A program made the position numbers and the translations under genes. A stretch of DNA of 64,000 nt from assembly GCA_038396605.1 (NCBI GenBank), contig CP121690.1, positions 248,001 to 312,000 of the forward strand, written 5' to 3'. Positions within the stretch are counted from its first letter, which is position 1. Each line of letters opens with the position of its first letter. This document shows positions 54,788 through 59,936 of the stretch, one piece after another. This DNA is from Eubacteriales bacterium mix99. GTDB taxonomy: Bacteria > Bacillota > Clostridia > Caldicoprobacterales > DTU083. A model generated the notes under the pieces. That model was not told the origin of the DNA. It did not search any database and saw nothing but the letters and a program-made list of their open reading frames with translations.

Positions 54788-54816
54788 AATGCAGATGACA
54801 TGCTGCATTTATTTTC
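54788..54816 (+). terminator. Weak terminator after the YibQ-like gene
   Basis: AATGCAG (54788-54794) pairs with CTGCATT (54803-54809) and is followed by TATTTTC. It overlaps the stop codon of the convergent GDPD gene. Confidence 0.4.
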
Positions 54817-55624
54817 TGAGATAGCATGACAAAAGCATTGGCCAGTCCGTCTGAATTACATCAAATCCATAACGGACCAGCCATCCCCAGCCGTCCTCCG
54901 GATCCTGAAACATGGAAATCCGGTCATCGTGACCCCCACCCAGCTTTTGCGTATCGTCCAGATTGATGGAATTTGCCCATAATATCCATCCTCTGTCATG
55001 CGCCTTCCGGATGTTTGCCTCCTGCAGCAGCGAACTGTTCTCTTCCTGGAAAACCATCTCCATGCCAATCACGCGGCAATTCAGCGGAAAAGCCCGATCG
55101 ACGTCTTCCTGCCTTGACACAATGGGCATATACATATATTTCGAGCCGATCGATTGCATCACTTCCGTTTCCTTTGGGGAGGAATGTCCTTTCAGGATGA
55201 TCTGATCCTGCATCTGAAAACGGTCCAGGTGTGGAATCAGCTCTTCAAAGAAGCCCCAGCTTCTGTCAATGTTAATCAGGCATCGTCCCTTGAACTGTTC
55301 CAGTACATCATCCAGCCGGTTGACCTTTTGCCTGGTTGGATAATGGATACAGTTATGCAGGGAAAAGCTCAGGATTTGCCCGGAATCCAATGTATTCAGA
55401 CGCTGGGAGGTACCCAGCAGAGCAGGTTCCTGATCCGTATGAAACAAAAAATATTTACCGTCCGTGGAACGGACCACATCCATTTCCAGAATATCGGCGC
55501 CCTGAAGCAGGGCATTTTCAAAAGCAGGAATGGTATTCTGAATGACATTCCCCCCGCTGCATCCCCGATGGGATGCAATCAGTACATTTTTCTTCTCCCT
55601 GGCAACCTTAATTTTTGCGATCAT
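54809..55624 (-). CDS. Glycerophosphodiester phosphodiesterase-family protein
   Basis: 271 residues, soluble. The GDPD barrel start is visible: IASHRGCSGG, NTIPAFENALLQGADILEMD and VVRSTDGKYFLFH. Two usual residues are changed: Gln replaces Glu in the ENT motif and Thr follows the second catalytic-region His where Asp is typical. Activity may therefore be altered. It is the last gene of the LplB/LplC-type importer operon, 39 bp after the AraC sensor gene. Hydrolysis of an imported glycerophosphodiester or a substituted glycan is a possible role. Confidence 0.82.
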   Translation of the reverse strand: MIAKIKVAREKKNVLIASHRGCSGGNVIQNTIPAFENALLQGADILEMDVVRSTDGKYFLFHTDQEPALLGTSQRLNTLDSGQILSFSLHNCIHYPTRQKVNRLDDVLEQFKGRCLINIDRSWGFFEELIPHLDRFQMQDQIILKGHSSPKETEVMQSIGSKYMYMPIVSRQEDVDRAFPLNCRVIGMEMVFQEENSSLLQEANIRKAHDRGWILWANSINLDDTQKLGGGHDDRISMFQDPEDGWGWLVRYGFDVIQTDWPMLLSCYLRK

Positions 55625-58127: not shown

Positions 58128-59867
58128 TTATTTTGCCCCGTAATATTTCCTCAATACCGTCAGGTAGTCTTTCAGACCCATATCCTTTAATTCTTTCAGG
58201 TAAGCATCCCAGTCCTTATCCAGGCTGCGGGTTCCCAGAATAAACTCCGTGTTTGCCCTTTTGATATAGTCGTTGAAAAGCCCGGAGTCTTCCGTCATCT
58301 TCGAGATCGTTTCCTTATCACTCCATACAATAGATGGAATATTCAGGGACTGATAATAAGACTCATACATCCTGGCTGCCTGCATCAGAATAAAGGTATT
58401 GTTGGTGTTATAGGTGGATTCGTCGTCCGTTACCGCATAACGAATCTTTTCACTGTCCACTTTCGGCACCATGTTCTCACCAAAGCGGAAATTATCACTG
58501 TAGGAATTCTGAAGAACCTTGACAGACTGATCCGCTCCGGAAAATGCGGGCTTATCCACCATTTCATAGTTCACGCCCTTTTTCATTCCATATGCATTGG
58601 CAAAGGTCCCTTCTTCTCCCGTCCAATAATCCAGCCATTTCATGGCCACCTCCGGGTATTTGCACTGTGAGGAAATGGCAGAGCAAAGCCGGAACACGAT
58701 TCCGTTGTCCGGCACAGCCTGATGACCGGATGGTCCCTTCAGCGGACCAATGGGAACATAATCCGTCCAATTCAGGACGCCTGTGTCAATAAATCTGCCC
58801 TGGAAAAAGGAAGGCACGGCTCCCACCAGAAAATCCTCTCCCTTTTTCTTATTGACAAGAGCTTTCAGGGAATCGCCATCCTGGGTATAGGTCTCTTCTG
58901 CGTAAAACAATCCTTCTTGATACAAATCATTCAGATAACGAAGTCCTTCCTTCCAGTCATCAGTGATGGGGGCAAATACCAGCTTGCCACTGTCATCGAT
59001 ATAGTAATAATTATCTCCTGTCATCTGGAAGCTGTCCATAATATACGGAACAGGATCCCCTTCTGCGCCAAAGGAGATCATAGGGATTTCGTCCTTTTTC
59101 CCATTGCCGTTCAAGTCCTTGTCCCGAATCTGAATCAGATAATCTCTGAATTCCCCTGTTGTTTCAGGAACCTTGCCGCCAAGCTTCTGAAGCCAGTCAT
59201 TATAAAGAAACATCTTATGGGTGTTCCTCATATGAACGCCGACATCCGTTTCCATCAGGGTATAGATATTCCCGTCATGGGAGGTTAAATATTCCTTATA
59301 TTCCGGGTTTTCCTCCAGTACCTTTTTGGTATTGGTTCCCTGGGATTCGATCAGATCGTTAAGCGGCAGTAAAATTTTACTTTCCGTTGCCGTCTGAACC
59401 TGTTCCGGGGTTAAATTGGTCAGATACATATCGGGATATTCCCCACCGGCAAAAGAAAGATTCAGTTGAGTGGAATATTCTTCTCCAGGCACAAACGTCC
59501 ATTTGATATGTACTCCGGTTTTCTTCTCATACTCTGTTATCATGGTGTTTGTCTTCGGATCGGAAATATGTTCCCTTTTGCCGGTCCATGCGGTAAGTGT
59601 CACCGGATTGGTTACAATGGGAAATTCATTGGGATCGGAAACCTTGATTTCTTTTCCGGATGAAGCCTTGCTGCCGGAAGCTGATTCAGTGGCAGAATTT
59701 GGCTTGCCGTTGGAATCCGAGGGCTTCTGTGACTTACCGGAACAGCCTGTGATCAGAATAGCAAGGCACAGAGCTGAAATAAGAGCTGCTGCTTTCTTCT
59801 TCTTCATAACTTTCTTATTCATAACTTTCTTATTCATAACTTTCTTATTCATAACTTTCTTATTCAT
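58128..59867 (-). CDS. ABC transporter solute-binding lipoprotein (LplA type) with repeated N-terminus
   Basis: 579 residues, typical of the large LplA/YtcQ binding proteins. The first 20 residues are four copies of MNKKV followed by MKKKK. Then come a hydrophobic signal (AAALISALCLAILITGC) with lipidated Cys near residue 42, and a Ser/Lys linker. The mature protein includes TAWTGKREHISDPKTN, YPDMYLTNLTPEQVQ and ADRNGNGKKDE-like calcium-site sequence (DKDLNGNGKKDEIP). GAGGGGG lies six bases before the first ATG, so translation should start at repeat 1. It follows the two permease genes. Confidence 0.92.
   Translation of the reverse strand: MNKKVMNKKVMNKKVMNKKVMKKKKAAALISALCLAILITGCSGKSQKPSDSNGKPNSATESASGSKASSGKEIKVSDPNEFPIVTNPVTLTAWTGKREHISDPKTNTMITEYEKKTGVHIKWTFVPGEEYSTQLNLSFAGGEYPDMYLTNLTPEQVQTATESKILLPLNDLIESQGTNTKKVLEENPEYKEYLTSHDGNIYTLMETDVGVHMRNTHKMFLYNDWLQKLGGKVPETTGEFRDYLIQIRDKDLNGNGKKDEIPMISFGAEGDPVPYIMDSFQMTGDNYYYIDDSGKLVFAPITDDWKEGLRYLNDLYQEGLFYAEETYTQDGDSLKALVNKKKGEDFLVGAVPSFFQGRFIDTGVLNWTDYVPIGPLKGPSGHQAVPDNGIVFRLCSAISSQCKYPEVAMKWLDYWTGEEGTFANAYGMKKGVNYEMVDKPAFSGADQSVKVLQNSYSDNFRFGENMVPKVDSEKIRYAVTDDESTYNTNNTFILMQAARMYESYYQSLNIPSIVWSDKETISKMTEDSGLFNDYIKRANTEFILGTRSLDKDWDAYLKELKDMGLKDYLTVLRKYYGAK
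59808..59867. repeat. Four 15-bp tandem repeats that carry the start codon
   Basis: The unit (ATGAATAAGAAAGTT on the minus strand) begins at 59867, 59852, 59837 and 59822. A further ATG lies at 59807. Because the unit is five codons long, copy-number change keeps the frame and only alters the basic N-region of the signal peptide and the number of possible starts. Confidence 0.9.
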
Positions 59868-59936
59868 AATTTACCCCCTCTTTTTTGCATATACTTTTGG
59901 ACTCCGGACATTTATCTGCGCGGCAACGCGTCGCAC

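Follow-up and report, generated by a model that had tools for sequence, protein, structure and literature searches.

A tandem repeat carrying the start codon of a solute-binding lipoprotein gene is probably a recent in-frame duplication, with no sign of a role as a genetic switch

How might a gene come to open with its start codon and the next few codons exactly repeated several times over, and would such a structure do anything for its owner? The question is raised by a gene of Eubacteriales bacterium mix99 found in a stretch of 64,000 nucleotides (hereafter the window), whose reading frame begins with a head-to-tail array of a 15-bp unit (Table 1). Sequence and TRF output agree with the original prediction that the array holds four exact units, translated as MNKKV x4, at the coordinates listed there; TRF reports the repeat at 59797-59869, with a period of 15, 4.9 copies, 98% matches and a score of 139. 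That each unit has its own ATG, and that the copies are in frame with one another, can be read directly from the sequence, and a diverged fifth unit, absent from that prediction, raises the number of in-frame ATGs to five within 63 nt. The array is far beyond chance, since the TRF scores of 100 shuffles that preserved the dinucleotides of the window peaked at 63 and none of them reached 139, and it is a single occurrence in the 3.13-Mb, single-contig genome. All four ATGAATAAGAAAGTT units are identical at third codon positions as well, the unit length is a multiple of three, and the ORF of 579 aa stays open throughout. These are two structural properties of a coding minisatellite, namely near-identical head-to-tail units of 3n length inside an ORF.

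Table 1. Features of the array-bearing locus and of the other start-codon array of this genome (positions are those of the window unless stated otherwise)
Feature	Position	Strand	Remarks
Four exact tandem units ATGAATAAGAAAGTT (MNKKV x4)	59808..59867	minus	unit 1 = 59867-59853, unit 4 = 59822-59808
Fifth unit, diverged, ATGAAGAAGAAGAAA (MKKKK)	59793..59807	minus	carries ATG5, the start position of homologues
RBS-like GAGGGGG	59874..59880	minus	GAGG 9 nt upstream of ATG1
Core lipoprotein signal peptide MKKKKAAALISALCLAILITG-C	59742..59807	minus	lipobox Cys = residue 42 of long form
Solute-binding lipoprotein (SBP_bac_1 / SBP_bac_8), 579 aa	58128..59867	minus	profile match
ABC permease (BPD_transp_1), 298 aa	59937..60833	minus	
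ABC permease (BPD_transp_1), 312 aa	60844..61782	minus	
AraC-family regulator, long N-terminal part, 814 aa	55664..58108	minus	
Glycerophosphodiester phosphodiesterase-like protein (GDPD + DUF4996)	54809..55624	minus	
Second start-codon array, 18-bp units, about 3.9 copies	G000:C1:367564-367626, outside the window	minus (L040 about 1465-1527)	pattern search

Judged by profile matches and neighbourhood, the array-bearing gene is a type-1 solute-binding lipoprotein of a sugar-type ABC importer. Its product matches PF01547 with 51.8 bits (curated cut-off 26) and PF13416 with 46.6 bits (cut-off 27), two permease genes adjoin it upstream, and the AraC-family and GDPD-like genes lie downstream, all on one strand. 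Solved binding proteins, including AlgQ1/AlgQ2, also match it by sequence, so that the importer lipoprotein originally proposed at this locus is borne out by profile, neighbourhood and matches to solved proteins alike; the substrate is likely to be of the oligosaccharide type. A basic n-region, a hydrophobic core and a lipobox Cys make up the predicted lipoprotein signal peptide.

The five ATGs (ATG1 to ATG5) precede the lipobox Cys by 41, 36, 31, 26 and 21 residues, and among them only ATG1 is preceded by an SD-like motif. A lipobox was recognisable in 39 of 42 lipoprotein loci, the array gene included (L017, L029 and L253 were dropped); one further locus, L022, was apparently read on the strand opposite to its listed match and is therefore probably a neighbouring binding protein. 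In the 38 related lipoproteins the closest SD-preceded start lies a median of 23 residues from the Cys, and 19-30 residues in 35 of them, while the tblastn homology of the best relative (G015) to the binding protein starts at residue 21. An alignment with only seven homologues also begins at ATG5, its empty N-termini being partly a matter of construction, as each homologue was taken from the closest start that has an SD-like motif before it; it is the lipobox distance and the tblastn start points that provide independent evidence. Because homologues begin at ATG5 and a distance of 21 residues to the Cys is normal, the four units amount to an added n-region of 20 residues, and ATG5 is, on these comparisons, the original start, whereas the start now in use is likely to be ATG1. 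The claim that the array lengthens the basic n-region thus stands, at 41 residues from ATG1 against 21 from the start of the homologues. In three of the 38 relatives (L018, L019, L024) a repeat-free n-region of 38-41 residues precedes the Cys, and such an extension is therefore probably tolerable. No orthologue of the binding protein was found among 99 relatives (best identity 33-35%) or in a search of genome contigs, so the ancestral copy number of the array is not directly visible. For start-site annotation the locus serves as a warning, with an ancestral start at the fifth ATG and a likely used start at the first.

Upstream of the array the sequence reads GAGGGGG TAAATT ATG, i.e. the array adjoins the RBS region. 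It can be deduced from this arrangement that gain or loss of a unit would leave both the frame and the spacing between RBS and ATG1 constant: the k-th ATG, counted from the 5' end, has the same distance from the RBS at any copy number, and all that changes is how many ATGs there are and how far the old start, ATG5, lies from the RBS. The original prediction had copy number altering the distance between the RBS and the ATGs, and here it fares poorly, as the only shift concerns ATG5, which has no SD-like motif; the spacing mechanism is thus a weak proposal. Nor does a change in copy number shift the frame or the promoter/RBS spacing as in a contingency locus, given the 15-bp unit and the constant position of ATG1, and we saw no sign of a genetic-switch role. 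Predicted RNA folding of the start region revealed nothing notable, being slightly less stable than that of shuffles (z +1.48).

A pattern search of the genome returned a second array of this kind, which opens a gene for a YitT/DUF2179 membrane protein (MKKSKTMKKSKTMNKSKTMNKSVIKEYF) with the unit ATGAA(A/C)AAAAGCAAAACA; its units follow an AAA/AAA/AAC/AAC pattern, that is, they contain internal substitutions. The orthologue in the only same-genus genome that we met (G001; 89% identical) has a single copy, MKNRKTINKGIIKEYLL, and so the YitT expansion, which adds about 12 residues, is lineage-specific. Elsewhere, no repeat was present at any readable start of a YitT orthologue among 30 loci examined, with L078, L081, L087 and L095 left out because they were on the wrong strand and L101 because its start was uncovered; L103 and L104 are not clear orthologues. 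The G001 start does include an imperfect second half-unit, ATAAACAAA, which may plausibly have been a seed for slippage in this gene.

How rare are such arrays? A Lys-rich pattern with three ATGs found matches in 30 of the 391 genomes sampled from the class and in 19 of the 398 sampled from the phylum (the samples overlap, and the two search patterns differ slightly in gap length), which would suggest that start arrays are common. Nearly all matches turned out to lie in non-coding repeats or inside genes, or to be acidic proteins read in another frame, and with this Lys-rich pattern no exact start array with at least three ATGs was found in the two samples beyond the two of this genome. Reading frames were inspected at given loci, at least one per matched genome, and at five extra places, and the remainder were judged from the letters alone, by in-frame stops or by overlap with a place already read. 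Because the search patterns are themselves rich in Lys and take the unit of this genome as their model, these rarity figures are biased towards it. Irregular, non-exact triple starts of exported proteins were seen in two other genomes (L059, L265), and one candidate, L043 (MKKVMKKRIL), was set aside as a two-copy 12-bp case that is too weak. Across 84,980 species, a wider scan for repeats of the M[NK]KK-hydrophobic type returned nine stretches; in eight the motif belongs to another reading frame, and the ninth is the start of a SusD-like lipoprotein. When any start-anchored duplication was sought directly, 864 kb of this genome (the window and 40 stretches, each of 20 kb) gave the two arrays and one weak two-copy case, and 1.03 Mb of seven other genomes (G065 with 400 kb, G001 with 227 kb and the remaining five with 400 kb between them) gave one weak two-copy case, the units of the weak cases being 80-83% identical. 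One genome (G051:C276:2686-2717) has two tandem copies of a 15-bp unit, GGGGTTATGAAAAAA, and with them a duplicated SD-like motif and start codon. At the level of titles and the openings of abstracts, start-codon-bearing tandem arrays were not found in the literature, which does not establish their absence from print.

A genome-wide excess of tandem arrays would explain why two start arrays occur in one genome; such an excess is not established. We counted 12 tandem arrays in 800 kb here against none in 400 kb of G065. Five control genomes, at 80 kb each, had five and two arrays in two of them and none in the other three, and TRF densities were 67.5/Mb here, 20.0 in G065 and 77.5 in the five pooled controls. 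These wider controls show no clear excess, and the idea that the genome is unusually rich in tandem repeats was dropped. The same-genus genome G001 has 11 short arrays in 227 kb once rows made of N runs are removed (in stretches L205, L209, L211, L216, L218, L219 and L220), denser than most controls; its TRF density of 264/Mb still includes N runs.

Taken together, we consider it probable that the array arose recently, by tandem duplication in frame at the 5' end of the gene's coding sequence, and that it is close to neutral in effect and not an on/off switch. Slipped-strand or similar duplication would have placed four MNKKV units ahead of the original start, now ATG5, with translation presumably beginning mainly at ATG1. 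With each unit 15 bp long and ATG-initial, and with the array lying at the RBS, gain or loss of units would preserve both frame and spacing, and the product would change only by a longer, Lys-rich n-region (+8 Lys) that would be removed with the signal peptide. Such a change would be nearly neutral and so may have been spared by the selection that purges most insertions at gene starts, and copy number would be able to vary. That the expansion is recent is suggested by the perfect identity of the four units, third positions included, and its tolerance by a unit that is a multiple of three and brings its own start codon, and by a position in an n-region that is probably cleaved off and can differ in length. 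The YitT array supports expansion as an independent second case, single-copy in the same-genus orthologue. What argues against an even neutral rate is that two exact arrays occur here and none in the other sampled genomes, at least with a pattern built on this genome's own unit.

Alternatively, copy number could vary between cells or strains and tune export, membrane targeting or the amount of lipoprotein as the n-region changes in length and charge. We regard such a rheostat as unlikely, even though the array is exact, in frame and within the n-region, so that slippage could alter it with function kept, the YitT array likewise precedes a membrane segment, and a SusD-like nutrient-binding lipoprotein of a Chitinophagaceae MAG has a comparable 15-bp start repeat. 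Against it, the relatives have n-regions of widely varying length (19-41 residues ahead of the Cys), and start arrays are absent from all other lipobox loci examined, i.e. there is no general enrichment at binding proteins. A broader form of the same idea, that minisatellites carrying a start codon form a small, hitherto unnamed class of evolvable elements, which arise independently across phyla and serve exported nutrient-binding proteins and membrane proteins as a safe rheostat, strikes us as improbable; in such elements the units would contain the start codon, lie at the RBS and encode the basic n-region, and slippage would step the length and charge of the signal peptide and never cost the start or the frame.

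Adjacent ATGs might instead raise the rate of initiation, or provide backup starts and signal peptides of mixed length. The crowding of five in-frame ATGs and the irregular MKK-start clusters of other exported proteins (L059, L265) are compatible with redundant initiation of this kind, whereas the confinement of the SD-like motif to ATG1 speaks against it, as do the positions of the later ATGs: spacings of 24 nt and more from GAGG are outside the usual SD range. Here too we think the odds are poor. An artefact of assembly or sequencing is the least probable account, for the array of 60-73 bp lies inside a single-contig genome, the frame is intact through it, and the internal substitutions of the YitT array could hardly be artefact-made. 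The near-neutral duplication that we favour would make the locus a natural example of a gene-start insertion overlooked by selection because the repeat supplies a start codon whose distance from the RBS stays constant. Should copy number vary in populations and change export, the array would represent a new, graded and never-off form of variation in nutrient uptake; at present it is a curiosity that bears on how gene starts grow.

Several known systems resemble the array in part. Bacterial in-frame coding minisatellites (VNTRs) consist of exact head-to-tail 3n units inside ORFs, and in this the array is like them, whereas its unit, unlike theirs, holds the start codon, abuts the RBS and lies in a signal peptide predicted to be cleaved. 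Phase-variable simple-sequence-repeat (contingency) loci, mostly of short units, switch by frameshift or promoter spacing; they share with the array a repeat near the gene start whose copy number slippage could change, but a change by units of 15 bp must leave the frame as it was, and the spacing between RBS and ATG1 is unchanged. The long signal sequences of autotransporters have an extended N-terminal region ahead of a normal signal peptide (PMC2805444), whereas the extension here consists of simple tandem copies of the beginning of a lipoprotein gene. A comparable design is seen in the SusD-like lipoprotein gene of the Chitinophagaceae MAG (CANHEC010000016.1; L113 2701-2754), in which (TTG/ATG)AAAAAGAAACTC occurs once with TTG and twice with ATG, followed by ATGAAAAAG: here too a 15-bp start unit precedes the lipoprotein signal of a nutrient-binding protein, although phylum and protein family are unrelated, ATG copies are fewer and the first codon of the repeat is TTG.
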